This document shows, one piece after another, positions 3,367-33,144 of a stretch of DNA of 33,144 bases. Position numbers and translations under genes: made by a program. Numbering within the stretch: the first letter of the stretch is position 1; each line of letters begins with the position of its first letter. Under the pieces are notes generated by a model that was given only the letters and a program-made list of their open reading frames with translations, was not told the origin of the DNA and ran no database searches. The stretch covers positions 1-33,144 of the IMG/VR virus record IMGVR_UViG_3300042544_000731; one strand, given 5' to 3'. This stretch comes from a virus.

Positions 3367-6300
3367 ATGGACTACTTCAACGGCCTCTTCTCTGACAGCG
3401 AACCTAGGAAAAAGAAGGAACGAGAAGTTGGTACCGCGGGGGCGGCGACCACTAACTACTTCGGTGGTTCAATTCTTCCAGACAGTTACTTTGCTAGCCA
3501 AGCACCCGCAGCTCCGCAGGAGCGAGTGAACACACCCGGCCTGATGTCTGACATCAAACGGGCTTCCGGCCAGTTTATTTCTGGTGCTGGCTCTGCCTTG
3601 CGCGACGTTGGTGCTGAGCAGTTAGGTAGTGGTATTGAGCAGTACGGCACTGGTATTGTCCGTCGTAACCCTAGCGAGATCAGTTCGTTTAGCGATGTCC
3701 TGTCACGTCCGTTCACAACAGCTCGTGAAGCTGTTGGCGAGGTAGCTCCACAAGTCGGTCTTGCTGTTGGCGGCCAAGTTACTGGCCGTCTAGTTGGTGG
3801 CGCGTTGGGTATTCCGTTTGGCCCTGCCGGTATTGCAGTTGGTCAGCAAGTTGGTGGTTTCGTAGGCGGCTTGCTACCTGCCGCTGTCCAGACATACGGC
3901 GGTATCCGTTCTGAGCAACGTGAAAAGGGCATCGATGAAAAAGGCCGCGCCCTTGCAGTCACGATCCCTGCTGCATTGCTTGAGCGTTTTGGCGGTGCGG
4001 AACGAGTTGCGTTAAGGGTTGCTGGAGAAGGCACAGAGTTCTTGGCTCGTGAGGTCGGTTCAAACGCATACAAAGCTGCTGCTAAACAGTTCGCACGAGG
4101 TGGTGTCGAAGAACTTATTACTGAGATTCCTCAGACTGCACTTGAACGTTATGGTGTAACTGGTGAAGCTGCGGACTTAACCAGTGCCGAAGCTATCGAT
4201 CAATACGGTGTAGCTGGTGCTAAAGCATTCTTAGGTGGTGGTGCTATTCGCACTGGTTTGTCTGTTGCTGCAGGTACGCGCCAAGACCCAACCGTTACGA
4301 TTCAACCTGACGGCACTATTACATCTAATCAACCATTGCCCGGTGCCGATGGCGAAGTCGACCTGACTAATCCAAACAACGTCATCACAACTCCTGAAGC
4401 TGCAGCTAAGAAGCTCGCAGAGTTTGACCCCTACGCCACGATCGCAGAACGTGCGGCTGCTGGCCGTCCAATGTCCGCCGAAGAGGCAACGCAGTTCTTG
4501 TCTTCGTCTTTGGCCGCACAGAAAGCTGGTCAAGACTACATCGATCTAATGCAAAGCCGTGAGGAAACCATTGGCCGTATCGGTCAAGTTGGTGAGCAGT
4601 ATCAACGCATGATCGGTCGCCGTGGCGATCAGTTGCTTGGTATCCAAGAAACCGGTGACTTGGCTCGTCCCATAGTGTCACGTCTGCAAGACGAAACTCA
4701 GCAACAAGAAGCTCCATACATTGCCGCAGCTCAGGCTGGTGCAGGTACACAACAACTTCCCGGTATGACACAGGGCGCTGGTACACAGGCTGATTACTCA
4801 CGCATCATGAACCCCGATGTGATGGAGCCTGTTGAGCCACAAGGCTTTGAGCCTCTTGCACGTACTGATCTGCTCCCTGCTCAGCCAGCTCCGTTCAGCA
4901 ACATGCGCTTGGACAGACCGGGCCCTCAAGAGTCGCTTACTGGGCCAACAAGCCAACTTTCTGATCGCCCTGTTACACCTGAGCCTGCCCCCGCTTCTCC
5001 TCTGGGTGGCGTGACCACAGCCGCCCCTTTGCCTCCTGCGCCAGCCGCAGGGGGCGTTTCTTCTACTCCTGCTACGACTACCCAAGATGGCGCTCAAACC
5101 ACTCAAGCCAAGCAAACAAAAACGAAAAAACAAAAAGCACCCATTGCCGTTGGATCAGTCGTAAAGGTTAACGACAAAGAGATCACACTCAGCCAAGAAC
5201 AAGCTGACGCTTGGAACAAGGCTCAGGAAGCTTACGAAAGCAGAGCCCGTCGTGCCCGTGAGATGACTAACTACCAAGAGCGCGAGAGCGCCTTGCGTGG
5301 TGCCGGTATGCAGTTGTCGGCTGAGCGCAGAAAGATTACTGGTGCGTTGACCGCCAAAGAACAGCAAGCTGCTAACCGCGTTGCTGATAGACAAACTGCC
5401 GAGCAGAAAGCTCAAGATGATATGGGCTTGACCGCGGCGCTTCAGACCGCCAACCGCACTAACGTTGCGAACAACCCACTGCAGGCTGGCGTCGAAGGCG
5501 CTGATAAGAAACCTGTACCGGGCAAGACTTCATTAACCGTCAGCTCTCTACGCAACATTCGTGACGCGTTGCTTAACCCCTCCGCAACTGTTGAAGGTAT
5601 CAGTGACAAAGAACAGCAGATTGCTGACGCTGTGCGTGCCTTTGCTAAGTCTTACTACAAGTTCAGCAACGCTGGTGGCAACATGCTTCGTGGCATCCCC
5701 ACAGAACGCGCGATCAAGGGTGAGAACGGCGAAACAATCTATAAGCCAACAAAGCTGGCTAGCCAAACCCCTGCACAGCAACGTGGCCAGATTAAGGCTA
5801 AAACCGGTGCCCGTGTCAGCACTACCCTAGATCAGTTGGGAGAAACTCGGGAAGCTCTTGCTGGTTTGGGCAAAGCAGTAGGGGGTAACGCCAAAGATGT
5901 TGAAGCTATCGTCAAGCTTGTCAAAGATATGGTGCAGCAGAAGTTGCATACCGAAGTCAATGATGAAGGTATGAACGAAGATTTCGGGCAAACGGACGAT
6001 GGTGATGATGGTGTAGCGCAGGCTTTCAAAAAGATGGACACCATGCTGTCGCAAGGTTGGAGAGCTGCCAAGGACAATATGTTCCAAGGCGCATCTGATG
6101 CCGCCTTTGTTCGTCAGACACCAATCCGTAGTTCCAAGGAAGCTACTGCCGCCGCTAGCACTGCAGTAACGCTAGACACACCGCTTGAGATGGCCGCACA
6201 GGGTTATGCCATATTTGGCAAGGGTGAATCTTCAACTGGCCTACTTGGTGTATTGAACTACATCCAAACACATGGCACGCCTTTCGAAAGAACTATTGCC

Positions 6301-10640: not shown

Positions 10641-10892
10641 TTACTTCATCCCTGCTGAACGTGTTCGTGCAAACGAACGGTTCGCAGACTTAGGAACTGC
10701 GCGGAGGTTACCTCCGCCATTTCCACCGCCCTTTGCAATGGGCTTCTTATGATCGACGTCGAGGCCATCGCCCTTTCGGACGATGCCCTTCTTTTCCATA
10801 TGCCGACGTGCCGCGTTGCGGTCAGCTCGGTTAGCGATCTGTTCAGGTTTGCCTTGGTAGTTGGCGTACTCTTTCTTGTAGTCACGTGGCAT
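10641..10892 (-). CDS. HNH endonuclease-like protein
   Basis: This 83-residue protein has a basic N-terminal half (MPRDYKKEYANYQGKPEQ, then RADRNAARRHMEKK) and a C-terminal HNH core: DVDHKKPIAKGGGNGGGNLR with Asp47-His48, then Asn62 and Asn71 (AVPKSANRS). HNH enzymes nick or cut DNA at a single metal ion. The protein is short, as many free-standing phage HNH proteins are; they may act in packaging or in homing. AGGAC lies before the start at 10892. It is the last gene of the leftward block, 24 bases after the primase-helicase gene, and ends directly against the rightward late genes. The family is clear; the cellular role is not. Confidence 0.8.
   Translation of the reverse strand: MPRDYKKEYANYQGKPEQIANRADRNAARRHMEKKGIVRKGDGLDVDHKKPIAKGGGNGGGNLRAVPKSANRSFARTRSAGMK
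10663..10717. other. two hairpins near the convergent junction, inside the HNH gene
   Basis: GTTCGT-GCAA-ACGAAC (10663-10678) is a perfect 6-bp stem with a GNRA-type loop. GCGGAGG-TTA-CCTCCGC (10701-10717) is a perfect 7-bp stem. Neither is followed by a clear U-run, and both lie in the coding part of the HNH gene. They could slow rightward transcripts that run past 10640, or they may be incidental to the Gly-rich coding sequence. Confidence 0.3.
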
Positions 10893-15665: not shown

Positions 15666-17216
15666 CTAATCGTCACTGTTGATGCCTTGCACCAAATTCA
15701 AAAACTCCGCCAATGTGTTCTGCTTTGCGCGGAGTCGGCGGTATAACTCTGCTTCAAAGCCTGTGGCCCAGATGTGCCATACAGTCGTCTTGCCAGTTGT
15801 TGTCAACCGGCGAATCCTTGCGTTGGCTTGCTCATACTGTTCAAGTGAATAAATTGGAGCAAACCAAACAATATCTTTCGCACGTGTCAATGTCAATCCA
15901 TGTGCCGCCACTTTCGGGTGAGCCAACAAAATCTGTGGCCTGTCCGTGTGTTGGAAGTCGTTGAAGATTTGATTGCGGTCATTCTTACTAACGTCGCCGT
16001 GAACCGATGCAACATCGAATCCATCAGCAGTTAACTTCGCCTGCAACTCATCTTGTACGCCTCTCAGCGGAACAAATATGATGACCTTGTCACCAATCTC
16101 ATTAAGTAGTTCAGTGAGTGTATTATACCTCAACGAGCCATCGATTGCAATCTTACCGGTCTCGCTGTACACGACACCGCAGCTAATTTGCAACATCTTA
16201 CTCAGTACAACTGCCGCATTCGCAGCAGTCACTTCACCCGCCGCAAACACAGTCACGGCTTTGTCTTTCATTTCCTTAAACGCTTTTTGTTGTTGAGGTG
16301 TTAGCTCTGTCTTGCGACCAACGAAGTTAGTGTCAGGTAAATCCTTGCACTCGTCAAGCGAAAAACGAATCGATGGTTGCAAAACTTTCTTGCATGTCTC
16401 AAGCGCGTCTTGTCGTGGTGTCCACTTAAACGTTGTCACCTTCTGCATCACCATATCTTTAAACGTCGTGAAGCTCTTAGGGCAAGTGGGCGAATCAACA
16501 AGTCGTGCGAGTGTCCATGCATCAGCAGGTGTCTGTGAGATCGGTGTACCCGTGAGCATCCACAGCCATGGCTTATGCGTCTGCATCCACTTAGCAAAAA
16601 TCTTGTAGCGTTGTGAGCTCGGTGACTTCAGTGCTGTGGCCTCGTCGTAAATTACTACGTCGAACCCTTTCAAATCCGCGGCCATGTTGCTAAAGCCATC
16701 GTGGTTGATGATGAAGTACTGCACACCGGGCTTCTCCAGCAATTGCTTGCGCTTCTCCTTCGTACCAGTGACGATCGAAAACATGCGGTGCGGCAAGTGG
16801 TGCTTGAGCTCCCTCCCCCATACAACAGTCAGCGTCGACAACGGCGCGACGATCAGAATCTTTTTCGCAACACCCTCGTCAAGCAAAAAGTCCGCGGCCC
16901 AGATCGAGCTGATGGACTTGCCGGTACCCGGCGCGTTCAGGCACAGGGCACGCTTATGTGTTGTGAGAAATGCGGCTGTGTCCTTCTGGTGATCCATCGG
17001 TGCGAACCGAGCGGGCCAGTTGTAGTAATGCATGATGGGAGCAGGGACACTAAAGCCCAAGTTCTTCAACACGATCGACTCGTCCACACCATACGGCACA
17101 GCAAGCATCGACTCACCATCATGGGTGAACTGTTTGGCGTGCGGCATCACAGACTGCACAGTGGCATTCTCATTGCTGTTAATGATGATCTTACGTTTGT
17201 CAGGTATTACAAGCAT
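15666..17216 (-). CDS. SNF2-family DNA helicase/translocase
   Basis: This 516-residue superfamily 2 enzyme has two RecA-like domains. Motif I is APGTGKS (Lys100), motif II DEAT (191-194, in the place of DEAH), motif III LTGTPI (221-226), and the C-terminal domain ends with motif VI QANARIRR (463-470). SNF2 proteins use ATP to move along duplex DNA; in phages they are thought to remodel forks or recombination intermediates. It follows the VRR-NUC-like gene with a 10-base overlap, a pairing seen in many phages. ATG 17216 is chosen; TTG 17231 in the same frame is possible. Neither start has a strong ribosome binding site, so translation is probably coupled to the upstream gene. Confidence 0.9.
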   Translation of the reverse strand: MLVIPDKRKIIINSNENATVQSVMPHAKQFTHDGESMLAVPYGVDESIVLKNLGFSVPAPIMHYYNWPARFAPMDHQKDTAAFLTTHKRALCLNAPGTGKSISSIWAADFLLDEGVAKKILIVAPLSTLTVVWGRELKHHLPHRMFSIVTGTKEKRKQLLEKPGVQYFIINHDGFSNMAADLKGFDVVIYDEATALKSPSSQRYKIFAKWMQTHKPWLWMLTGTPISQTPADAWTLARLVDSPTCPKSFTTFKDMVMQKVTTFKWTPRQDALETCKKVLQPSIRFSLDECKDLPDTNFVGRKTELTPQQQKAFKEMKDKAVTVFAAGEVTAANAAVVLSKMLQISCGVVYSETGKIAIDGSLRYNTLTELLNEIGDKVIIFVPLRGVQDELQAKLTADGFDVASVHGDVSKNDRNQIFNDFQHTDRPQILLAHPKVAAHGLTLTRAKDIVWFAPIYSLEQYEQANARIRRLTTTGKTTVWHIWATGFEAELYRRLRAKQNTLAEFLNLVQGINSDD

Positions 17217-18446: not shown

Positions 18447-20282
18447 CTATTTAGCGTCCCCATACGAAGGGCCAATGCCCGTCTCACAAGATACGGGAAT
18501 GCTCCGGCACCACTTGGGTGTCAGGGACAGGCACTCTTCCATATAGGCACGAGCTTCAGTAAGTTCTTCGTTTGGCACCACGCAGACTGCTTCGTCATGG
18601 ACTGACAGCTTCACGGGGTACCGTTGGTTGATACGTGCAGTTTGCCACATAACGATGCGCATTGCAGCATGTTGTGATAAATTTTCTACAACTTTCGGGC
18701 CGAAGATACGCACCCGTTGTTTTCCCATCAGGTACGACCATTCCTTGCCGTCGAACTTCAGGTCGTGGTACATCACCCCGGGCTCACCGGGGCGGCCAAA
18801 GCCATCCTTCTGCGTGATAAACCATCCGTTGACGTCCACGTTCAGCATACTGCAACCATTGGCGATGTCGGGCAGGATCAATTGCTGACAACGACCCCAC
18901 AGGTCAACAACCTTGTGGTGCACAGAGCGGTACAGATTCACAATGTCGTACGCACGGTTCAGGTCAATGGCTTGCACAGACGGATCGCTACGCGCCGCGA
19001 TACGCACCATCTCTTGGAATCGCTGAGCACCGGCACCGTACTGCAGACCAAGCATAGCGGTCTTGCCCAAGAAACGTTCAGCCTTGTCAGCCTTGGTGAT
19101 GTTGCGGCCAAAGAGCTTAGATGCGAAGTCGCAGTACAAGTCAACACCATTGGCCAACTTATCTACCACGTCATCTTGTCCGGCCAAAGCCATCACAGTG
19201 CGAAGCTCGATGTTGGACGAGTCACCGACGAGCACAGTGTGTCCCTCGGGAGCAAGCAGGGCGTTACGCAGACCCGCAGACGGGCCACGCGCAGGGATGT
19301 TCTGCCAGTTGATGCTGTTGCCGCCTGAGTACCGGCCAGTGGTCTTAGCGCCCCAGAAGTTGAGGTACACCGGCAGTGGGCCACGCTTCGCAGTATCCAC
19401 GAACTTGAGCGCACGGGTCTCAGCGATGGTTGTCTTCACACCAAGGCGTGCGGCGACAAGCGCCTGCACGTTGGAGTTCTCATGGTCGAGCAAGTCAGTG
19501 AAGTCCTTGTCGCTCTTAGCGAACGCAAACGTTTCCTTGCCTGTGGTGTTGCTGATTTTCTTGGGGGCGGGCACACCGAGCAGCTCGAGCTGTTCAGCGA
19601 ACTTGTCATTGGACATCAGCGTTTCCTTGCCGACAACCAGTGAGCGCATCAGTGCTTCCTTGCGGGCTACCTCGTCCTTGTACAACTGCTCCATCTTAGG
19701 TACGTCACCAACGAGCAAGGGCTCAGTGAACATACGCACAGTCATATCAATCAGGCGGGCTTCTAGAGGCGGCGTGAACGCATCCATCTTCTCACCCATC
19801 GCACGGCATAGCCACGTGTCATGCTTGCAATAATCTGCATACGCCTCTAATCCCATGGGATTAAAGTCGGCACGACGCATGCCCATTGCTTTAATTACTT
19901 CAGTGCCTTTGTCAGGGAACCCGAAGAATTTAGTTAAGTTAGCAAGTGAGTGTGAGACTAAGTAAGGGTAAAGCATGCGGGCTTGTGAGAGTGTGTCCAT
20001 CCACAGCCGCGGTCGTATCCCTAGTCGTTGCGTCAGCGCATAGCCGTCGAACAAAGTGTTGTGGCACCGCACAGCAGAGTTAGCCCAGTCGTAGTTGGAG
20101 TGCATCCACTCAGCGATCTCAGCTTCGTCACCACTGAACCACACGGGCGGCTCCGCATTGCGTGCAACGCAAACGCCGATGAATTCAAAGCGATCGTCCA
20201 TGATGTACGCATCAGTCTGCATCTTTGACAAACTAAATGCCGCATCGTAGTACGTTTCAATATCTACAGTAAGTATGTCCAT
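18447..20282 (-). CDS. polA: family A DNA polymerase with 3'-5' exonuclease, Leu762 type
   Basis: This 611-residue replicative polymerase keeps an exonuclease domain (VDIET with Asp7 and Glu9; CHNTLFDG with Asn75 and Asp79; ADYCKHD with Tyr151 and Asp155). The palm/fingers carry motif A GDSSNIELR (Asp354, Glu359), motif B RFLGKTAMLGLQYG (Arg403, Lys407, Tyr415) and motif C SVHDEA (His562, Asp563, Glu564). Aligning motif B with E. coli Pol I (R-x3-K-x3-F762) places Leu411 at the 762 position. There is no 5'-3' exonuclease domain, as usual in phages. GGAAT precedes ATG 20282; it shares one base with the upstream stop. A copy of the 16-bp palindrome lies inside at 19848-19863. Confidence 0.95.
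   Translation of the reverse strand: MDILTVDIETYYDAAFSLSKMQTDAYIMDDRFEFIGVCVARNAEPPVWFSGDEAEIAEWMHSNYDWANSAVRCHNTLFDGYALTQRLGIRPRLWMDTLSQARMLYPYLVSHSLANLTKFFGFPDKGTEVIKAMGMRRADFNPMGLEAYADYCKHDTWLCRAMGEKMDAFTPPLEARLIDMTVRMFTEPLLVGDVPKMEQLYKDEVARKEALMRSLVVGKETLMSNDKFAEQLELLGVPAPKKISNTTGKETFAFAKSDKDFTDLLDHENSNVQALVAARLGVKTTIAETRALKFVDTAKRGPLPVYLNFWGAKTTGRYSGGNSINWQNIPARGPSAGLRNALLAPEGHTVLVGDSSNIELRTVMALAGQDDVVDKLANGVDLYCDFASKLFGRNITKADKAERFLGKTAMLGLQYGAGAQRFQEMVRIAARSDPSVQAIDLNRAYDIVNLYRSVHHKVVDLWGRCQQLILPDIANGCSMLNVDVNGWFITQKDGFGRPGEPGVMYHDLKFDGKEWSYLMGKQRVRIFGPKVVENLSQHAAMRIVMWQTARINQRYPVKLSVHDEAVCVVPNEELTEARAYMEECLSLTPKWCRSIPVSCETGIGPSYGDAK
19848..19863. repeat. TAATCCCATGGGATTA palindrome inside the polymerase gene
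   Basis: This is a perfect copy of the 16-bp inverted repeat found in leaders further right. It is read in frame as FNPMGL, just before the third exonuclease motif. It is the only copy I see inside a gene and the only one left of 25 kb, so if the repeat works as a protein-binding site on DNA this may be an internal site. Confidence 0.85.
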
Positions 20283-21259: not shown

Positions 21260-21614
21260 TTTTGCTCCTTAGTTTGGTTTCAATGGCTCGGACGAACATT
21301 CCCCATGTCTGCTCGTGTGACTTGGCTGTATTGCAAAGCCATGTAACTTCCTCATCCGTCAGCCCTACCCATGTGCGCTGTGGTGGGGTGGTGTAAAGAG
21401 GTGTGATGTATTCGCCTTCTACTCTTGCGTGTTCATTAGGGTGTATTGCATCAATGAAATGTCCATTGCCATGCAACATCGCCCAAGCCACAGGCTCATC
21501 CTTCGCTTCTAGTGCGGCTTTAATGGCGGTGATGGCTTGCAGTTGCTTTTGCTGTGGATACATACTTGTTTCCAACGCCTCCAATGCAAGGCGTAATGTT
21601 TCTGTATGTGTCAT
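21243..21614 (-). CDS. phage protein of the ALEALE...PVAW...PLYTTPP type
   Basis: This 123-residue protein begins with a helical repeat (LRLALEALETSMYPQQKQL, then AITAIKAALEAKDEPVAWAM), followed by EYITPLYTTPPQRTWVGLTD and a helical C-terminus. Proteins with this beginning are frequent in phages of proteobacteria; I know no function. It overlaps the XRE regulator gene upstream by four bases. Unlike most neighbours it has a clearly modular build, so it may be two short domains joined. Confidence 0.65.
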   Translation of the reverse strand: MTHTETLRLALEALETSMYPQQKQLQAITAIKAALEAKDEPVAWAMLHGNGHFIDAIHPNEHARVEGEYITPLYTTPPQRTWVGLTDEEVTWLCNTAKSHEQTWGMFVRAIETKLRSKNDSHR

Positions 21615-21853
21615 AAGTATTGCCCCATCTGATTCAAACTTGTTTTGTAGGCTTTAGCCATGATTGCTGACTTTGCCAACGTGGGCATTACCTTGTTGTT
21701 TTCTACATCAGACAAGTAAGATTTTGCACAGCCAATTTTTTTGGCCATTTTTTCTAACGACATATCAGTTTGGCAAAGCCGTAGCCCTCTTAAATATTCA
21801 CCAAGGGTTACTTTTTCATCCAATGCAAGGCATAATGCTTGGTCTTTAGTCAT
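21611..21853 (-). CDS. XRE-family helix-turn-helix regulator
   Basis: This 80-residue protein is a single HTH_3 domain: LGEYLRGLRLCQTDMSLEKM, AKKIGCAKSYLSDVENNKVM and PTLAKSAIMAKAYKTSLNQM give the five helices, with KSYLSDVENNK as the recognition helix. XRE proteins usually dimerise and bind inverted repeats. It is the only obvious DNA-binding regulator in the window and so the first candidate to bind the 16-bp palindrome, although nothing in the sequence proves this. ATGA overlaps join it to both neighbours. There is no C-terminal sensor or protease domain, unlike a CI repressor. Confidence 0.85.
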   Translation of the reverse strand: MTKDQALCLALDEKVTLGEYLRGLRLCQTDMSLEKMAKKIGCAKSYLSDVENNKVMPTLAKSAIMAKAYKTSLNQMGQYL

Positions 21854-23643: not shown

Positions 23644-23925
23644 TCACACGATTGGTTTAAAACAGATTGATCCGACAACCTCGCCACGATGGACGACGTC
23701 GTAGAACTTGTCGACACTCTTAGCACCTGCCCGTGCCATGTCGCTCAGCACCACAGTCATAGAACGTCCCAGTGTAGAAACGTACACGACAAGGTTCTCT
23801 TCGTCGACGGACAACCACTCGCGGTCTTGGTCGATGTTGACGCCCAGCTCCTCAAACCCGCGCACGAGTTTGGTCTCGATGCGGGTCAGCCGGTACATAA
23901 TATCTTTGGATAAAGGCGCGTTCAT
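23644..23925 (-). CDS. hypothetical protein
   Basis: This 93-residue protein, starting MNAPLSKDIMYRLTRIETKL, has a helical N-terminal half and a beta-rich second half (ENLVVYVSTLGRSMTVVLSD...GEVVGSICFKPIV). ATG 23925 has GAGAACTAT ahead and lies 7 bases after the VWA gene. It could serve with that module by position, but nothing in its sequence shows this. Confidence 0.55.
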   Translation of the reverse strand: MNAPLSKDIMYRLTRIETKLVRGFEELGVNIDQDREWLSVDEENLVVYVSTLGRSMTVVLSDMARAGAKSVDKFYDVVHRGEVVGSICFKPIV

Positions 23926-23932
23926 ATAGTTC

Positions 23933-25075
23933 TCACAATGCAACAGTAACCCGTGTGCCGAAAGGCTCACTGGGATGGGAATGGCCGATGTCGGCCCAGA
24001 TCACAGGATAGGCAGGCTCCTCGCACTCGGCCAAGTCACCCTCCATGTCAGTGAAGAAAATCATGCCGCAGTAACGCTCGCCGGTATTCTCGAAGTGCTC
24101 GAACACTGGTTGGAAGCGCGTGCCGCCACCGCCCTTGGGACGGAGCTCTAACTTGTCGTCACGCTCGAAACGCTCGACACGTGTCACCGATGAGTCGCAG
24201 TACGCAACCTCAACGAACGATGGTTGCAAGTCGTCAACGATCGCCTGAATCTCAGCGGCAATCTGGTTGCATTCCTTGGGGCCCATCGAGCCTGATGTGT
24301 CAAAGCCAATGGCCAAGCCACCGAGCGAGTCAGTGCGAAGCGATGGCATGTACAAGCCAGAGCCAATGAAGCGACGTGAGGGACGCAGGTACGTGTAGTC
24401 CGCGGCTGATGACTCAGTCATCATGGAACGAGTCACGTCTTGCCAACGCACGTTGGGCTGACCAACATTGTCCAGTATGCGATCGATCATGCTAGAACCT
24501 TGACCGCATTCCTTGGCCATCTTAGCGGCGGCAACAATGGTAGCTTCCATGTCGACACGAGTCGCCTCGTCTTGTGCATCCTCAAGGTCACCCTTGCCAT
24601 CAAAGCCACCGGCATTGGGCGTACCCTCGCCGTCGCCATCACCTGAGCCAGAGCCACTAGATGGAGGGGGAGGATTTTCTTTGAGCTTGGCGTAGACTTC
24701 CTCGGAGGACATGTTCTCACGCACCCAACGCAAGTCGACACCGCCCTTGGGTAACTGCCACCCACGGCTACGGATGTACGCATTGATAAGCGCATCGTTG
24801 GCATAGTTCCACAGGCTAGGGTCACGACCCTCGCGACGCCACATGTGCATCATCACAACGTGACAAGCCTCATGCAACACAAGGCCGAACAACTCCTCGT
24901 CATTCAGTGGATCACAGAACGCAGGGTTGAAGCGAACCCATGTACCATTAGTACCGGCAGTGGATACCTTGTCAGACACCTCACGCTTGACGCGTGTCAT
25001 GACAGCGGCAATGAAGGACTCGCGAAGACCTAGCTTGCTGTAGGCTACATCGATGCGGTCAGATAAGTTACTCAT
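23933..25075 (-). CDS. metallopeptidase-like/VWA protein (DUF2201-like), MoxR partner
   Basis: This 380-residue protein has two parts. The N-terminal half carries LVLHEACHVVMMH, an HExxH (His68, Glu69, His72), as in the putative metallopeptidase part of DUF2201 proteins. A Gly/Ser/Asp linker (about 134-160) leads to a VWA-like domain with the metal-site motif GFDTSGSMG (Asp259, Ser261, Ser263) and a later TDMEGD. VWA proteins of this type act with MoxR AAA+ ATPases, such as the one two genes upstream, to remodel or load metal into target proteins. The start at 25075 follows TTGGAGAATATT. A copy of the 16-bp palindrome lies 26 bases upstream. The target of the pair is unknown. Confidence 0.8.
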   Translation of the reverse strand: MSNLSDRIDVAYSKLGLRESFIAAVMTRVKREVSDKVSTAGTNGTWVRFNPAFCDPLNDEELFGLVLHEACHVVMMHMWRREGRDPSLWNYANDALINAYIRSRGWQLPKGGVDLRWVRENMSSEEVYAKLKENPPPPSSGSGSGDGDGEGTPNAGGFDGKGDLEDAQDEATRVDMEATIVAAAKMAKECGQGSSMIDRILDNVGQPNVRWQDVTRSMMTESSAADYTYLRPSRRFIGSGLYMPSLRTDSLGGLAIGFDTSGSMGPKECNQIAAEIQAIVDDLQPSFVEVAYCDSSVTRVERFERDDKLELRPKGGGGTRFQPVFEHFENTGERYCGMIFFTDMEGDLAECEEPAYPVIWADIGHSHPSEPFGTRVTVAL

Positions 25076-25089
25076 AATATTCTCCAATC

Positions 25090-25116
25090 AGTAAACAAGT
25101 TAATCCCACGGGATTA
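25090..25116. repeat. 27-bp leader repeat containing the palindrome (copy A)
   Basis: Bases 25090-25116 are identical to 28630-28656. The right part (25101-25116) is the inverted repeat TAATCCCACGGGATTA; the left part gives ACTTGTTTAC on the minus strand. The first three bases of the palindrome (minus strand) are the TAA stop of the 95-residue gene, and the block forms the leader of the VWA gene. Confidence 0.9.
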
Positions 25117-25401
25117 CTCCGTGCTGTATTCTAATGCAAACAACGACTCAACGTAAACACGTGCAACAGCTAAGTCATCGAAGGACTTCACATCATCGAA
25201 CGTGTTGCGAGTCACAACCCACCCACGATCTGAGTCGAGTAACCCAGATGTGTTGTATGCAGGGCGAATGTACGCGAACACGTGCTTGACGATCGACTTC
25301 TTGTAAGACTTGTAGTCTCTATGTTTTTCTACATAGGCAGTCCAAGCACCGACAGGTGTGTTCTGCCAACGTAACTCTGGTCGTTTGTCCATGCCGATCA
25401 T
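25114..25401 (-). CDS. hypothetical protein between MoxR and VWA genes
   Basis: This 95-residue protein contains QNTPVGAWTAYVEKHRDYKS, aromatic and basic in the first half, and ends with a short helix (DDLAVARVYVESLFALEYST). Its start overlaps the MoxR stop (ATGA) and its TAA stop is part of the palindrome in front of the VWA gene. Its place between the ATPase and its likely partner suggests a shared role. ATG 25392 is an alternative start. No family is recognised. Confidence 0.6.
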   Translation of the reverse strand: MIGMDKRPELRWQNTPVGAWTAYVEKHRDYKSYKKSIVKHVFAYIRPAYNTSGLLDSDRGWVVTRNTFDDVKSFDDLAVARVYVESLFALEYSTE

Positions 25402-26405
25402 TTCATCGCGAATGCGGCTTGGTTAGCGATAGCCCACTGGGTAAACGCTGAGCTCTTGGTGATCGTGCGGTCGCGCTTGTGTGCCAACTTAATGGTGAGT
25501 GTCTGCACCTCGCCGGGCATCTTGGACAAGAACTTCCATGCCTTGTCGAAGTTGGTTGCATCGAGACGTGTAGCCAAGCCCATTGCGACGCAATAACGTA
25601 CGTTTAATTCCTTGGGCACAGGCACGTCCTTACCTTGCAGGATGTCCTCGATACGTGGCATCGACTCCCACACACGCAAGTGTGTCTCGAAGATCATGGC
25701 CGCCTCTTCACCGACGTCACCCTTGATAAGCTCGACGCGATCTTGCACAGGCAAGTCAAGCTCCAGTGTGTGCGACACAGCGAACCACGAACGTGGTGAG
25801 GGGAAGGGACGAATGTCACCAGTGGGCTCGAACTTGTGCAACAAGTCAGGACGGTCTTGCAACAGAGACAGAATCTCTGGGCGAATGCCACGGGTAATAG
25901 CGTGAGCAACGAAGTCGTCGATCGTGGTGTTGACGTCGATGTCACACATGCGGTTCTGCAGTGGTGCGGCAAGGTTAAACGTCACGCCTCGGTCGGTCTT
26001 GCGATTACCGGCGGCGATAATCATCCACTCTGGGGGAATGCCGAAGTCCTCGGGTGTAAGGCATAGCTGATATGCCGCGGCCTGCACTGAGGGAGGCGCT
26101 GACGTGATCTCGTCAAGGAACAGAATACCTGCACCTGACTCAGGTAGGAAACTAGGGCGTGCCCAGTTAGTGCGACCCTCGACCACATGAGGGATACCAC
26201 GTAGGTCAGTGGGTTCCATCTGCGCTAAGCGCAGGTCGATGACACCCTGCCAGTTGGCAACGTGCTCTGACAATAGCTTGCTAGTCTGGAAGACAACCTC
26301 GGACTTGCCGATACCCGATGGGCCGCGCAAGAAAGTTGTACGTGCTCGTGTCTTGTCGTTGAGGTAACGCTTAACGAGGATGGGGGTAACGTGTGCAATA
26401 CGCAT
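25398..26405 (-). CDS. MoxR-type AAA+ ATPase
   Basis: This 335-residue protein is one AAA+ module: Walker A GPSGIGKS (Lys34, Ser35), Walker B GILFLDEI (Asp98, Glu99), sensor 1 AAGN (Asn134) and the arginine of PLQNRM (Arg152), which likely acts in trans. MoxR/RavA/CbbQ-type ATPases form rings and, with a VWA co-factor, remodel or activate specific proteins. AGGAAATCATC precedes ATG 26405. The leader holds a perfect 7-bp hairpin and a copy of the 16-bp palindrome. The VWA partner lies two genes downstream and a DUF3150-like gene upstream. No cobaltochelatase subunit is near, so cobalamin synthesis is unlikely. Confidence 0.85.
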   Translation of the reverse strand: MRIAHVTPILVKRYLNDKTRARTTFLRGPSGIGKSEVVFQTSKLLSEHVANWQGVIDLRLAQMEPTDLRGIPHVVEGRTNWARPSFLPESGAGILFLDEITSAPPSVQAAAYQLCLTPEDFGIPPEWMIIAAGNRKTDRGVTFNLAAPLQNRMCDIDVNTTIDDFVAHAITRGIRPEILSLLQDRPDLLHKFEPTGDIRPFPSPRSWFAVSHTLELDLPVQDRVELIKGDVGEEAAMIFETHLRVWESMPRIEDILQGKDVPVPKELNVRYCVAMGLATRLDATNFDKAWKFLSKMPGEVQTLTIKLAHKRDRTITKSSAFTQWAIANQAAFAMK

Positions 26406-26438
26406 GATGATTTCCTATAAGTGAACAAGTTGAAAGGT

Positions 26439-26457
26439 GCCGATGAACCGCATCGGC
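26439..26457 (-). promoter_or_regulatory. leader hairpin upstream of the MoxR gene
   Basis: GCCGATG-CGGTT-CATCGGC on the minus strand is a perfect 7-bp stem with a 5-base loop, 34 bases ahead of the MoxR start and 6 bases after the palindrome at 26464-26479. There is no U-run after it, so it is not a normal terminator. It could protect the transcript, pause polymerase or affect ribosome access. Confidence 0.55.
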
Positions 26458-26463
26458 TACGGG

Positions 26464-26479
26464 TAATCCCATGGGATTA
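26464..26479. repeat. TAATCCCATGGGATTA palindrome, MoxR leader
   Basis: This perfect 16-bp inverted repeat lies between the stop of the 69-residue gene and the MoxR gene. On the minus strand its first three bases are the TAA stop of the upstream gene (26479-26477). Confidence 0.9.
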
Positions 26480-26686
26480 GTTTAGGGGAGTAACGGGCAT
26501 GCCGTCAACTTCAGTCGGTGCGGCCTCAGCCTTAGCACGTGCTTCGTTCTCTTGAGCTTGTGCTTGCTGAATGATGTTGTCGATCATGCCACGCATGAGA
26601 CCATGAGGGCCTGCGTCCAATGTACGAAGCAACACTTGCAATGCGTTAGCGTCGAGGTTCATCTCGAGTTTGATTGAGTAATTCAT
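26477..26686 (-). CDS. small hypothetical protein
   Basis: This 69-residue protein, starting MNYSIKLEMNLDANALQVLL, has a short strand, then a helix (TLDAGPHGLMRGMIDNIIQQ) and an Ala/Glu-rich tail. AAGGAAACTT precedes ATG 26686; an upstream extension to 26728 is rejected for lack of a binding site. Its stop is formed by the palindrome. No family is recognised. Confidence 0.6.
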   Translation of the reverse strand: MNYSIKLEMNLDANALQVLLRTLDAGPHGLMRGMIDNIIQQAQAQENEARAKAEAAPTEVDGMPVTPLN

Positions 26687-26708
26687 AAGTTTCCTTGGGT
26701 TAATAAGT

Positions 26709-26726
26709 GCCCGCCGTGAGGCAGGC
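26709..26726 (-). other. leader hairpin upstream of the 69-residue gene
   Basis: On the minus strand GCCTGCC-TCAC-GGCGGGC forms a 7-bp stem if one U-G wobble is allowed. The same bases on the plus strand contain a mismatch, so it would fold better in leftward RNA. No U-run follows, so termination is unlikely. Confidence 0.4.
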
Positions 26727-26739
26727 ATCCAGTTTACTC

Positions 26740-26970
26740 TTAGTTAGAGTTCAGTGCAAGCTCAGCGTACTGAGCTGTTGTAAATTGTCGAATCGACATG
26801 TTGTTCACAGTTGACTCACGCTTGACATGCTTATAGCGCTGTGCAGTCCAGTCGTAGGTTACCTCTTCAGCTTGACACAACAGCGGGAATAGTTGCATCG
26901 CTACGTCAGTCGGTAACACAAGCCCAGAACCACCAAGCTCAATGATGCAGTATGTGACGGGCTTGGTCAT
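26740..26970 (-). CDS. hypothetical protein
   Basis: This 76-residue protein, starting MTKPVTYCIIELGGSGLVLP, looks like a small alpha/beta protein with a helix around DVAMQLFPLLCQAEEVTYDW. CTGGAGTAATC before ATG 26970 is a good ribosome binding site. Only two bases separate it from the gene upstream. No family is recognised. Confidence 0.6.
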   Translation of the reverse strand: MTKPVTYCIIELGGSGLVLPTDVAMQLFPLLCQAEEVTYDWTAQRYKHVKRESTVNNMSIRQFTTAQYAELALNSN

Positions 26971-26972
26971 GA

Positions 26973-27320
26973 TTACTCCAGACGCAGGACTTCTAAGCCC
27001 TTGCCGTCATTGGTCAACGATGATGTTGTAGCACCAGAACCGAACACCTTGGCACAACGTGACGACACTGATGAACGCAATGACTGCATAGGTAGTCCGT
27101 CAGGCAAGGGGATGATCGCTGACTGACCAACACCTAGGGTGTCAATGACTGCTCGGTAGTCGACAACACCGCGCACATCGACCACTGGCTTGGTAGTTTT
27201 CTTGGGTGCGACGACAAGCTCGCCATACTCGTAGCCCTCGGGTGAAATGATCTTGAGATCACAGCCTAAGTTAGTGAGTTGATTGGCAAGACGTTCAATG
27301 GTTTTTTCTGTGATTGACAT
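26973..27320 (-). CDS. hypothetical protein
   Basis: This 115-residue protein starts MSITEKTIERLANQLTNLGC and has a basic middle (VVAPKKTTKPVVDVRGVVDY) and a Ser/Thr-rich end. GAGGACTAAACC precedes ATG 27320. It sits directly after the DUF3150-like gene (three bases). No family is recognised; a DNA-contact role is possible from its basic segment but unproven. Confidence 0.6.
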   Translation of the reverse strand: MSITEKTIERLANQLTNLGCDLKIISPEGYEYGELVVAPKKTTKPVVDVRGVVDYRAVIDTLGVGQSAIIPLPDGLPMQSLRSSVSSRCAKVFGSGATTSSLTNDGKGLEVLRLE

Positions 27321-27323
27321 GGT

Positions 27324-28205
27324 TTAGTCCTCTAACATGGAGTTGATGGAAGCAAGTAACGCAGTGGTTTGGATGTTGACTTCCTTGCGTTTAGCAGGGT
27401 CGTCGCGCAGTTGTTGTGGATGTGGCGTCGTATCGATGACTGTCTTAGCCAGTGCGATGATGTTGTCGGGGAGAATCTCCGCGAAGTCATGCAACAAGTT
27501 AATTTCCTCAGCGATGTTCTCGCACACAGAGTCACGAAAGATTGGTGCACGTACTTCTGTGCGGCCAGTCCTCTTATCGATAGCCACACGTTCAGTGCGT
27601 CCAGTCACCTCATGTAAGCGAGACACAACTTCTTTGAGTCGCTCGAGGGGTGCACGCAGAACAGCGTTCATCGATTCCTTGGTCGCCTCTTCCACTTGTT
27701 GCCTGAGTGCGGCAAGCTCTTCCTCTTGCATCGCAACGCGGAAGTCCGTCACGTCAGTGATGGGGCGGTAGTTGATCTTGAACCTGAACGCACTACGCAA
27801 GTCCGTCAGGTCTGGGTAAGCACTGGGATCGAACAGCCCACCTTGGCTAGCTTGGGCATGCATCATGACGTTGCTCCAGTTGTTGAGGAACGCAGTCACG
27901 GCCTGATCGAACTCGAGCTCGTACTTACCAATGCGCTCAGCGAACTGCATGAAGCGAGCGGACGGGAGCATGTTCTCGCCTCTGCCCCATGGGTACGTGG
28001 TGCTCTCGATGTAGGCACGGGCTTGTGACTCAATGAGACTGATGGGTTGCACCAGTGACTTGGGATACAAGTCCTTGCGGTACTGGCCTGCACCATGTGC
28101 GTTGTTGGCGGACTCTGCATCTGCAGTGGCTTTGCTGTCCTTCTGAGTCATCTGTGGTTTGTTGACTGACAGCGACACGAGTAATGCGTGATCTTTGATT
28201 GACAT
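27324..28205 (-). CDS. DUF3150-like protein
   Basis: This 293-residue protein has the order expected of DUF3150: an N-terminal segment after LVSLSVNKPQM, YPKSLVQPISLIESQARAYI, PWGRGENMLPSARFMQFAER, FDQAVTAFLNNWSNVMMHAQ, then GGLFDPSAYPDLTDLRSAFR and TDVTDFRV. The C-terminal half is helical with a likely coiled coil around residues 160-200. DUF3150 genes occur next to CobS/MoxR ATPases and VWA genes in phages and bacteria, so it is likely the third member of that module here. CTGGAGAAAATT precedes ATG 28205. A palindrome lies 21 bases upstream. The biochemical role is unknown; the family match is from memory of its pattern. Confidence 0.7.
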   Translation of the reverse strand: MSIKDHALLVSLSVNKPQMTQKDSKATADAESANNAHGAGQYRKDLYPKSLVQPISLIESQARAYIESTTYPWGRGENMLPSARFMQFAERIGKYELEFDQAVTAFLNNWSNVMMHAQASQGGLFDPSAYPDLTDLRSAFRFKINYRPITDVTDFRVAMQEEELAALRQQVEEATKESMNAVLRAPLERLKEVVSRLHEVTGRTERVAIDKRTGRTEVRAPIFRDSVCENIAEEINLLHDFAEILPDNIIALAKTVIDTTPHPQQLRDDPAKRKEVNIQTTALLASINSMLED

Positions 28206-28226: not shown

Positions 28227-28242
28227 TAATCCCATGGGATTA
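28227..28242. repeat. TAATCCCATGGGATTA palindrome, DUF3150-like leader
   Basis: This perfect inverted repeat lies between two genes. On the minus strand its first three bases (28242-28240) are the TAA stop of the 123-residue gene, and it ends 21 bases ahead of the DUF3150-like start. Confidence 0.9.
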
Positions 28243-28611
28243 GAGGGCGTCACGAATGACAGTGCGGACAGCTTCCTCGAAGTCACCGCCAGTAAAGTTG
28301 GGCTCATAGTCTGTGAGCTTCTGGTCAACAACGTCATCGATCTTGGAGTCGAAGTCGAAGTCGTTCATCGCGTCCTCAACCTTCTGCTCGATCTGGTCGT
28401 CGATGTAAACAACCGATGCATTGCACACAGCCTCACGGGTCTGGTCGTCGTCGTTGAGTAACTCAATGAGTGACGAGCGCAGGGTCTCGGGGTCAAGTGC
28501 AAGCACTGCCTGAGTCTCAGCTTTCATCTTGCTGATAACTGCGTCTGCAACGTCCGACACAAGTTTGTCGTACACGCCGCCAAGAATAGATAACATTTGT
28601 GCTTGATCCAT
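28240..28611 (-). CDS. acidic helical hypothetical protein, first gene of the left early operon
   Basis: This 123-residue protein is strongly acidic (DDQTREAVCNASVVYIDDQI, then VEDAMNDFDFDSKIDDVVDQ) and mostly helical. AAGGAGATTCATC precedes ATG 28611. It is the first gene after the sigma70-type promoter at 28701-28729, with a palindrome in its leader, and its own stop is formed by another palindrome. It could be a DNA mimic or a partner-binding protein given its charge, but this is only inference. No family is recognised. Confidence 0.65.
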   Translation of the reverse strand: MDQAQMLSILGGVYDKLVSDVADAVISKMKAETQAVLALDPETLRSSLIELLNDDDQTREAVCNASVVYIDDQIEQKVEDAMNDFDFDSKIDDVVDQKLTDYEPNFTGGDFEEAVRTVIRDAL

Positions 28612-28629: not shown

Positions 28630-28656
28630 AGTAAACAAGTTAATCCCACGGGATTA
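28630..28656. repeat. 27-bp leader repeat containing the palindrome (copy B)
   Basis: This block is identical to 25090-25116 and includes the palindrome TAATCCCACGGGATTA at 28641-28656. It lies about 38 bases downstream of the expected transcription start of the promoter at 28701-28729 and 19 bases ahead of the 28611 start codon. Confidence 0.9.
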
Positions 28657-29618: not shown

Positions 29619-30014
29619 TTAAACAAAGTTTGATCTGCGGGTTAGCTCAATGTAGTTGTCTACATAAACACCCTCGTTGTTGTATGCATCGGTCTGCGTA
29701 TCGATGTCGTCGTCTTCCTCACCCAAGCGCAGGAACACAAACGCACCCTCATAGGTTTTACTCACAAGTTGCATGAGCTTGATTTGCAAGTCAACCCAAG
29801 GCGTCGACTCGTACCACTTGATGTCGTTGTAATGCACGCGTATCTGGTATGGATACTCATCGCTGTTGTCGATGTGGTAGTCCCAGTCGTTGTTGATAAC
29901 GTCAAGCCCAGAGTTAATGTCAGCGGCAACGAGCATCGCTTCCAACTTAAAGGCTTGGCGGTTCTCCTCTGTATTAAATAACATGACGTACTTTACGTCT
30001 GATCTGTAACCCAT
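29619..30014 (-). CDS. phage protein starting MGYRSDV, unknown function
   Basis: This 131-residue protein begins MGYRSDVKYVMLFNTEENRQ, a start common to small phage proteins, and has alternating strands with YQIRVHYNDIKWYESTPWVD and FVFLRLGEEDDDIDTQ. The family occurs in many phages of proteobacteria with no known role. The ribosome binding site AAGGAAGGA lies immediately after the palindrome at 30029-30044. Confidence 0.7.
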   Translation of the reverse strand: MGYRSDVKYVMLFNTEENRQAFKLEAMLVAADINSGLDVINNDWDYHIDNSDEYPYQIRVHYNDIKWYESTPWVDLQIKLMQLVSKTYEGAFVFLRLGEEDDDIDTQTDAYNNEGVYVDNYIELTRRSNFV

Positions 30015-30028
30015 AATAGTTCCTTCCT

Positions 30029-30044
30029 TAATCCCGTGGGATTA
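30029..30044. repeat. palindrome TAATCCCGTGGGATTA directly ahead of a ribosome binding site
   Basis: This inverted repeat fills most of the gap between two genes. On the minus strand its first three bases (30044-30042) are the stop of the 94-residue gene, and its last bases run directly into AGGAAGGA, the ribosome binding site of the MGYRSDV gene. Confidence 0.9.
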
Positions 30045-30775: not shown

Positions 30776-31299
30776 TTGTTCTGTCCTTTCGCAAACTGAA
30801 TCGCTTGGTACCACACCTCGTGGGCATCTGCAATGGATGTGTAGTACTCGCTCATGGAGTCGTAAAACTCACGGCTACTGCGGTGCTCAGAGTCACAGAG
30901 GACAAAGCGCACAACCTCTCCCCGTGGTGCAACTGCAACAGCGTCGCCATACGCCTCGACGAACGCAAGCTCTTCTGGTGTCAATTCGCGGTGTTGTGAT
31001 AATTCCTTGACGGCAATCACAGTCTGATCCCAGTGCGAGTCTGAACCCTCGTCGCCAAACTCCATGGGGCTGAGTATGTCGTTGGCACACTCGATGGCTT
31101 CCTCAATACTGGATGCTTGTACAGTGTGTAGTTTGGTCACAGTTGAATAAACAGTGATCTGGTATTTGTTGAGCTTTTTCTCTTGTGTCATGATGTTTTT
31201 CCTAAATGTATAAAGTGCATCGGGTCGCGTCGCGAACCAACGGCTGAGTTGTGGGTTGTCGTCCTGCATGAGCAGGGGCGGAGGCCACCCCGTTTTCAT
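30772..31299 (-). CDS. hypothetical protein with two possible starts
   Basis: From ATG 31299 the protein has 175 residues; from ATG 31191 it has 139 (MTQEKKLNKYQITVYSTVTK). Both have good ribosome binding sites: AAGGAGACTTT right after the palindrome for the first, AGGAAAAACATC for the second, which matches the style of neighbouring leaders. The shared part has a beta-rich start (TVYSTVTKLHTVQASSIEEA) and a helical end. The extra 36 residues (MKTGWPPPLLMQDDN...) look less protein-like, so 31191 may be the main start. No family is recognised. Confidence 0.6.
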   Translation of the reverse strand: MKTGWPPPLLMQDDNPQLSRWFATRPDALYTFRKNIMTQEKKLNKYQITVYSTVTKLHTVQASSIEEAIECANDILSPMEFGDEGSDSHWDQTVIAVKELSQHRELTPEELAFVEAYGDAVAVAPRGEVVRFVLCDSEHRSSREFYDSMSEYYTSIADAHEVWYQAIQFAKGQNK

Positions 31300-31309
31300 A
31301 AAGTCTCCT

Positions 31310-31325
31310 TAATCCCGTGGGATTA
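31310..31325. repeat. palindrome TAATCCCGTGGGATTA ahead of AAGGAG
   Basis: On the minus strand the palindrome starts with the TAA stop of the 257-residue gene (31325-31323) and its last two bases begin the AAGGAG ribosome binding site for ATG 31299. Confidence 0.9.
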
Positions 31326-32096
31326 GTTGTTGGTGTGAAGTGCAATGAATCCGGCCACAGTAGAACGCATCTGCTTTACTGGGTAATCAGAGACAACATA
31401 TATAAAGTCAAGCACGTTGTTGCATGCGTCCAAGAACGCAGGGTTGTCGAAGTGTGACGCCACGGCTGAGTGGGGGTGAATGTCTTGCGACACGTTGCGA
31501 ATGCAAGTGCGAAGGTGAACCCGTGCATGGTCTAAAAGTGCAAACCTTGTCTCATCACGCAACCGCGGGCGAATCGCGGCCGTCTCTAGGTTTTCCATGG
31601 CCTCGTCGTAGTTCTGGCCGTACTGGCACGCCTCTGCACGATGGGGTCTGGTCAGTGATTGCATCTTGAGGTCACCCGCGTTTGCATTCCACTTGCCACG
31701 TGTGCGGTATGAAGTCTCGAAGCAACCGGTGCGGTAAACCTTTCTGACTGCTTCATCATAGGAAAAACCCGCATCCTTTTGTTGCTCAATGAAGGCGTTG
31801 AAATACAGTGACTTGTGGCGTTTGGTTGTTGGTGAGAATCCATTGACGTGCATCCATAGCTCAACGTTGTCTGTGTGTTGGTTGTGCACTAACTGAGCAA
31901 CTTCTGTGCTGTATGAATAGCCGATGGCAAGGACATCGAAGTGCCCGAAGGATTCAATGTTGAGGCTGTGGGATTGGTGAATTGTCGGGTTGCGTGCAGA
32001 CATGTTGGTGCCTATACCCAAACCGCGCATTTCAGTACCGACGAGCTTTTTAGCCGCAGACGCAAAGCGTGCGGCAACTTGTGCATTAGTTGTCAT
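31323..32096 (-). CDS. hypothetical protein, first gene of the right early operon
   Basis: This 257-residue protein starts MTTNAQVAARFASAAKKLVG, with a His/Asn-rich middle (HQSHSLNIESFGHFDVLAIG, EVAQLVHNQHTDNVELWMHV), then RKVYRTGCFETSYRTRGKWN and a helical C-terminus. TGGAGATCATC precedes ATG 32096; an open frame to 32192 lies in the promoter leader and is rejected. It is the first gene after the promoter at 32205-32233, so it is probably expressed early and strongly. No family is recognised. Confidence 0.65.
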   Translation of the reverse strand: MTTNAQVAARFASAAKKLVGTEMRGLGIGTNMSARNPTIHQSHSLNIESFGHFDVLAIGYSYSTEVAQLVHNQHTDNVELWMHVNGFSPTTKRHKSLYFNAFIEQQKDAGFSYDEAVRKVYRTGCFETSYRTRGKWNANAGDLKMQSLTRPHRAEACQYGQNYDEAMENLETAAIRPRLRDETRFALLDHARVHLRTCIRNVSQDIHPHSAVASHFDNPAFLDACNNVLDFIYVVSDYPVKQMRSTVAGFIALHTNN

Positions 32097-32135: not shown

Positions 32136-32151
32136 TAATCCCACGGGATTA
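32136..32151. repeat. palindrome TAATCCCACGGGATTA in the promoter leader
   Basis: It lies about 47 bases downstream of the expected start of the 32205-32233 promoter and 39 bases ahead of ATG 32096. It is not linked to a stop codon here. Confidence 0.9.
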
Positions 32152-32746: not shown

Positions 32747-32762
32747 TAATCCCGCGGGATTA
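32747..32762. repeat. palindrome TAATCCCGCGGGATTA in the control region
   Basis: This fully symmetrical copy has no gene directly on either side. It lies between two isolated TACGTC sites and the TACGTC array, so it may link the leader palindromes to the origin-like region. Confidence 0.9.
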
Positions 32763-32970: not shown

Positions 32971-33138
32971 TTAAATTGAGGCGGTGCCTTTTACTGTTTT
33001 GCCCTTGGCCGCCTTGCTGACGCTAAACCCAAGGGTTATCAGGTGCGCGACAATGCGGGGGTGAAACACCGCATCTTTGAAATAACCCTCAAAATCGTCA
33101 AGCCATGCCGAAAATTTATCGGTTTCGGTTTTGACCAT
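32971..33138 (-). CDS. small hypothetical protein at the right edge
   Basis: This 55-residue protein, starting MVKTETDKFSAWLDDFEGYF and ending AAKGKTVKGTASI, has a helical acidic first half and a basic end. The frame is open to the window edge, so the true start may lie outside. It is followed after 20 bases by a strong terminator, which supports it as a transcribed gene. No family is recognised. Confidence 0.5.
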   Translation of the reverse strand: MVKTETDKFSAWLDDFEGYFKDAVFHPRIVAHLITLGFSVSKAAKGKTVKGTASI

Positions 33139-33144
33139 ATCAGG

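Follow-up and report, generated by a model that had tools for sequence, protein, structure and literature searches.

A MoxR ATPase, metallopeptidase-VWA and DUF3150-relative module of uncultured phages, its plasmid counterpart, and the repeated palindromes in its gene leaders

The MoxR ATPase, the metallopeptidase-VWA protein and the DUF3150 relative encoded in the window (a virus record of 33,144 bases, analyzed at its full length and treated as a fragment of an uncultured phage genome) constitute a real module, which is already known in part. The pairing of a MoxR ATPase with a metallopeptidase-VWA protein has been described in jumbo phages and as gp24/gp25 of phage N4; new here are the DUF3150 component and the plasmid counterpart of the set, a fourth small gene, and the marking of the genes by a palindrome. 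Taken jointly, the trio is read as a MoxR–VWA chaperone machine and the palindromes as duplex-DNA sites of a dimeric regulator, with a probability put at roughly 0.55.

The three ORFs of the module all reside on the minus strand, and the ORF list bears out the coordinates given for them in the preliminary description. The protein encoded at 23933-25075 combines an HExxH zincin domain (DUF2201_N) with a C-terminal VWA domain; its initial assignment as a VWA protein is upheld by Pfam matches to DUF2201_N (E 4e-37, 128.6 bits) and DUF2201 (E 1e-19, 71.2 bits), both above the cut-offs, and its PHROG match is phrog_1314 (1.8e-84). In the alignment, the HExxHxxxxH and MIDAS (DxSxS, T, D) motifs are intact, with H68, E69, H72, H77, D259, S261, S263, T319 and D343 invariant across phage and plasmid sequences, hence the protein displays the hallmarks of the DUF2201 metallopeptidase-VWA class, i.e., a zincin HExxH domain and a VWA domain with a MIDAS. 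The label of phrog_1314, “HNH endonuclease”, is common in phage records; the proteins aligned here carry HExxH and MIDAS, and the name looks wrong.

The product of 25398-26405 (minus strand) is an AAA+ ATPase of the MoxR type, as indicated by Pfam (AAA_5, E 1.6e-8, 35.1 bits at a cut-off of 22), PHROG (phrog_1297, 7e-72) and the residues conserved in 16 sequences: Walker A G31/G33/K34, Walker B D98/E99, sensor-1 N134, Arg152 and sensor-2 R205. The AAA+ core typical of the MoxR class (Walker A, Walker B, sensor 1, Arg finger and sensor 2) is therefore complete, and the characteristic partner is also present, since a VWA protein is encoded 0.3 kb downstream and the pair recurs across phages and plasmids. 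Phage and plasmid homologs alike retain the residues that hydrolyze ATP, bind zinc and form the MIDAS, so that the ATPase and the metallopeptidase are both probably catalytically active.

The third component is a mostly helical protein of 293 aa encoded at 27324-28205 (minus strand). Its earlier label, DUF3150-like, stands as a statement of homology but not as a Pfam assignment: the window protein has no Pfam match and does not reach the gathering threshold of PF11348, and the best score in the group, obtained for a single member (E 5e-4), is also below the cut-off. At the same time, tblastn links it to the DUF3150 protein of Synechococcus phage MinM2 (5e-14), and a profile of 25 sequences matches a Manganitrophus plasmid protein (hhalign probability 98.3, E 1.2e-14) that itself passes PF11348 (35.3 bits at a cut-off of 24.9). 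For this reason the product is termed a DUF3150 relative, as judged by sequence, and not a formal PF11348 member. AlphaFold2 predicts long helices (pLDDT 85), and a Foldseek search against PDB structures returned no confident match (E >= 0.25). Matches of the fold to VIA were dismissed as generic helical bundles; a BFVD match to a protein of the cluster O phage Dylan (E 8e-3, TM 0.37) was dropped because hhalign gave it no support, and a scan for distant homologs with the Manganitrophus DUF3150 found nothing. The model suggests that this protein, a candidate third component, is likely an adaptor of the MoxR–VWA pair.

A candidate fourth component is the 92-aa protein encoded immediately 3' of the VWA gene (23644-23922, minus strand), just outside the span 23933-28205 initially delimited as the module. 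Its gene is universal in the phage group (9/9 genomes) and its product, which yielded no confident match to a known fold, is recognized by the motif E-[ST]-K-[LV]-V-R-G-F-E-E-[LI]-G. The small genes lying between the main ones had been proposed as adaptors or targets, and they fare less well. The gene 25114-25401 (minus strand, 95 aa), overlapping the end of the MoxR gene by 4 nt, is weakly conserved in the group, and the 92-aa gene is a better candidate. The stretch 26477-27320 turned out to comprise three minus-strand genes instead of one: 26477-26692 (71 aa) and 26740-26970 (76 aa), both of them kept in close relatives only, and 26973-27320 (115 aa), present in G001 and G008 only. Since their conservation ends with close relatives, their role as adaptors was rejected.

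The DUF3150, MoxR and VWA genes are present, in that order, in 8/8 contigs of the phage group, uncultured phages of 58-61 kb with polA 58-93% identical. They belong to the common non-structural gene set of the group, together with primase, SNF2 helicase, VRR-NUC, exonuclease and polA, and in Vibrio phage K479 the MoxR–VWA pair likewise adjoins a Dda-like helicase and a DNA polymerase. This location among replication genes argues against a purely structural role of the module. Beside the primase, all group members also keep a small Lys/Arg-rich, HNH-like protein (10641-10892 of the window; motif DVDHKKPIAKGG...NL). The early block is headed by a gene fragment (32971-33144) related to a 213-aa protein of G008 (15805-16446); it matched no known family, and its product is possibly a regulator.

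Outside the group, contiguous MoxR–DUF3150–VWA genes are found on the Rhodovastum plasmid RHOApb and on the conjugative plasmid pBVIE02 of B. vietnamiensis. According to the hit lists, all plasmids with a DUF3150 of the pBVIE02 type (41/41) also match MoxR and VWA; the cluster occurs on plasmids of soil bacteria, among them Burkholderia, Paraburkholderia, Cupriavidus and Variovorax. The protein families are the same three as in the window, but the gene order differs (MoxR-DUF3150-VWA versus DUF3150-MoxR-VWA in the window). MinM2 (L194) carries the three genes as well. Hence, the preliminary view of the trio as a set is borne out: the genes co-occur in phages (8/8 group relatives and MinM2) and in plasmids (41/41), instead of being carried independently. 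The DUF3150 protein is seemingly not required for the pair everywhere: Rhizobium phage RHph_TM3_14A (L216) has MoxR and VWA without it, and searches of MoxR–VWA phages with no annotated DUF3150, the last of them with phage Tunturi_3 as a positive control, detected none in the N4-like phages tested, phiFa, CRP-7, K479 or RHph. Other partners of DUF3150 were also observed (L219, L223): on the Manganitrophus plasmid it is separated from a classical AAA ATPase by DUF1257 and DUF2997, and in Tunturi_3 an ATPase lies 2 kb upstream of it.

By analogy with the established MoxR–VWA systems RavA–ViaA and NorQ–NorD, docking of the VWA protein on the AAA+ ring is to be expected here. In the mechanism proposed for the phage module, the AAA+ ring would consume ATP, the metallopeptidase-VWA protein would dock on it as a co-chaperone and might cleave the client, with the helical DUF3150 protein acting as an adaptor or scaffold, the whole set being produced together with the early/middle replication genes. 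From gene presence, intact catalytic motifs, co-occurrence and position, all of which were observed directly, we infer complex formation, its chemistry, its timing and its target. The client would most likely be a protein that takes part in phage or plasmid DNA replication, in gene expression or in taking over the host, and not solely a virion part, a preference grounded in the plasmid occurrence, the replication-gene setting and the middle-gene timing of the N4 homologs, which belong to middle transcripts (PMC4193335).

A role as a chaperone-protease of virion assembly or maturation has been put forward for the jumbo phages of group 2.2, in which Iyer et al. 2021 (PMC7824862) describe this combination of MoxR with a metallopeptidase-vWA protein, and for the Acidianus two-tailed virus, and some virion proteins of N4-like roseophages are encoded near the gp24/gp25 homologs (PMC4193335). 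For the module described here such a role is deemed unlikely: the trio is found on conjugative and other plasmids, which have no virions, and the phage module sits in a replication block on the strand opposite to the late genes of the window.

The preliminary description also envisaged a counter-defence or host-takeover machine, which would remodel or cleave a defence or regulatory protein of the host. The distribution over phages and conjugative plasmids, both of which need to overcome host defences, and the probably early expression of the module block are in line with this idea. Still, no known anti-defence family was matched, and PADLOC models gave no match to the three module proteins or their plasmid homologs, a result uninformative on counter-defence either way. 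Anti-defence genes are often patchy in distribution, whereas the module is core throughout the phage group; on balance, this function, too, appears improbable.

The palindromes form the second part of the joint reading. Nine perfect copies of the 16-base palindrome TAATCCCRYGGGATTA are present in the 33 kb window, where 0.18 copies would be expected even with three mismatches allowed; no shuffled sequence reached nine. As the preliminary description had it, each of the three main genes has its own perfect copy in the leader: TAATCCCACGGGATTA at 25101-25116 for VWA (25 nt from the start), 26464-26479 for MoxR (58 nt) and 28227-28242 for DUF3150 (21 nt), overlapping the stop codons of 25114-25401, 26477-26692 and 28240-28611, respectively. 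Two more copies are situated between a sigma-70-like promoter and a gene, namely 28641-28656 (promoter 28729-28701, TTGACA-17-TACAAT; gene 28240-28611) and 32136-32151 (promoter 32233-32205; gene 31323-32096), and two precede the gene 29619-30014 (30029-30044) and a gene with its start near 31299 (31310-31325). These seven lie where one gene meets the next, from 25.1 to 32.2 kb, a region in which most junctions with enough room are occupied, and most of the palindromes are away from recognizable promoters. Of the other two copies, one falls within a gap of 874 nt that precedes the early block (32747-32762), and one is inside the DNA polymerase gene polA (19848-19863, codons for NPMGL), where none was seen in the relatives examined. 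The notion of a module-specific element was rejected, because most of the nine copies are elsewhere in the early block.

The relatives, of 51,953-61,078 bases, harbor 6-11 perfect copies per genome. A perfect palindrome is found near 29/36 DUF3150, 36/41 MoxR and 37/50 VWA starts, compared with 21% of random 460-nt windows from the same loci (distinct starts were counted, which are not phylogenetically independent); some of the starts lacking it probably reflect wrong start calls. The marked genes outside the module vary from genome to genome, and it is the module genes that carry the mark most regularly. At MoxR identities of 59-97%, the flanking DNA has diverged with the dyad unchanged, and such strict conservation at the three genes calls for a maintained function.

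Several peculiarities of the sites favor a duplex-DNA site over an RNA element. The central dinucleotide is RY in 241/243 distinct sites, a count inflated since part of the set was retrieved with an RY pattern; the window palindromes, searched with an NN center, are RY only. Both AC and GT centers occur on the sense strand. Over the 243 sites, position -1 is almost never A and position +16 almost never T, which is a strand-symmetric rule, and the flanks do not covary as base pairs. In addition, the dyad of RHph_TM3_14A, TTACCTNNNNAGGTAA, is present in both orientations, with one copy between convergent genes. The symmetry, position, conservation and lineage-specific versions of the palindromes are observed features, from which we infer protein binding and an effect on transcription. 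Judging by the sites themselves, the palindrome is probably a symmetric switch site for a dimeric regulator, which would bind at open junctions so that the early block, and each module gene individually, is switched or insulated. A domain search of ten group/window proteins for the binder revealed a DNA-binding family only in the protein encoded at 21611-21853; this is the only helix-turn-helix protein recognized in the window and is outside the common genes of the group.

Alternatively, the palindromes might act as RNA hairpins (UAAUCC-CRYG-GGAUUA) shaping mRNA processing or translation gene by gene. Their placement after the stop codon of one gene and ahead of the ribosome-binding site of the following one agrees with this, as does the coincidence of the TAA stop with the first three palindrome bases in 117/243 sites. 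Yet such an overlap is expected of a TAA-starting site in short, tightly packed junctions, and the strand-symmetric rules, the flanks without base-pair covariation and the Rhizobium phage copy between convergent genes are all at odds with a hairpin, making this explanation quite unlikely.

In L009, whose module proteins are 99% identical, the gene preceding DUF3150 has been swapped near 6198 and the palindrome lost with it. A role of the palindromes in cassette swapping, as recombination joints or selfish boundary repeats, might be suggested by this swap at a palindrome junction and by the deletions described between cluster O repeats (PMC4351075), but it is very unlikely, given that the exchange removed the palindrome and that the same three genes remain strictly marked across the range of MoxR divergence.

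Repeated dyads of other sequence are encountered in further lineages with the trio or the pair. MinM2, an isolated phage, possesses 33 copies of GGTTCAGNCTGAACC (up to one mismatch allowed), and in its relative L222 (DUF3150 66% identical) the arms GGTTCA-N3-TGAACC are kept and the center is changed. In RHph_TM3_14A, also an isolate, TTACCTNNNNAGGTAA recurs about 30 times over 42 kb, with at most one mismatch; its exact copies frequently have inner bases that do not match (C..A or T..G), as though the half-sites were not alike. The dyads of the palindrome lineages (the window group, MinM2 and RHph_TM3_14A) include TAATCCCRYGGGATTA, GGTTCANNNTGAACC and TTACCTNNNNAGGTAA. A count of dyads with 6-nt arms gave 8-27 copies in these lineages and none above four in eight comparison phages (six with the MoxR–VWA pair, the DUF3150 phage Tunturi_3, and the polymerase relative Rollin). 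Since the lineages are few, the association of the trio or pair with repeated dyads is suggestive only. On the plasmids, no repeated palindromes were found in the 16-19 kb examined of the Burkholderia and Rhodovastum loci, so the module and the palindromes are separable. It is conceivable, if highly improbable, that the machine remodels or cleaves a palindrome-bound protein, thereby releasing early genes or organizing phage DNA; if true, this would explain why the trio or pair lineages have different dyads and why the eight comparison phages have no array.

These findings matter since many phages have a MoxR–VWA pair among their core genes. The plasmid trio weakens the virion-assembly idea and offers a tractable non-viral place to seek the target. 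Palindromes differing between lineages but placed in the same way predict a matching DNA-binding dimer in each lineage.

Among the known systems, the jumbo-phage pair resembles that of the window in uniting a MoxR ATPase with a vWA protein bearing an N-terminal metallopeptidase domain; the window adds the DUF3150 relative, the fourth small protein and a replication setting in a phage of ~60 kb, and its trio recurs on plasmids. N4 gp24 (an AAA+ ATPase) and gp25, which N4-like phages have among their core genes (PMC7650795), are homologous to the window pair (for the N4-like Erwinia phage S6, the identities are 31% and 28%), but neither DUF3150 nor a repeated palindrome was found in the N4-like phages tested, and the window has both. 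With respect to the palindromes, the cluster A stoperators also occupy many short intergenic spaces genome-wide; being asymmetric and oriented with transcription (PMC9283540), they differ from the symmetric window palindromes, and a perfect dyad with both AC and GT centers on the sense strand is not an asymmetric stoperator. The 17-bp dyads of cluster O mycobacteriophages (PMC4351075) are likewise short and perfect, with invariant arms, a variable center and many copies at junctions. They differ in sequence and center length and number tens of copies versus nine in the window; in Corndog, 14/34 sites are clearly between genes (PMC4351075), whereas nearly all of those in the window are.
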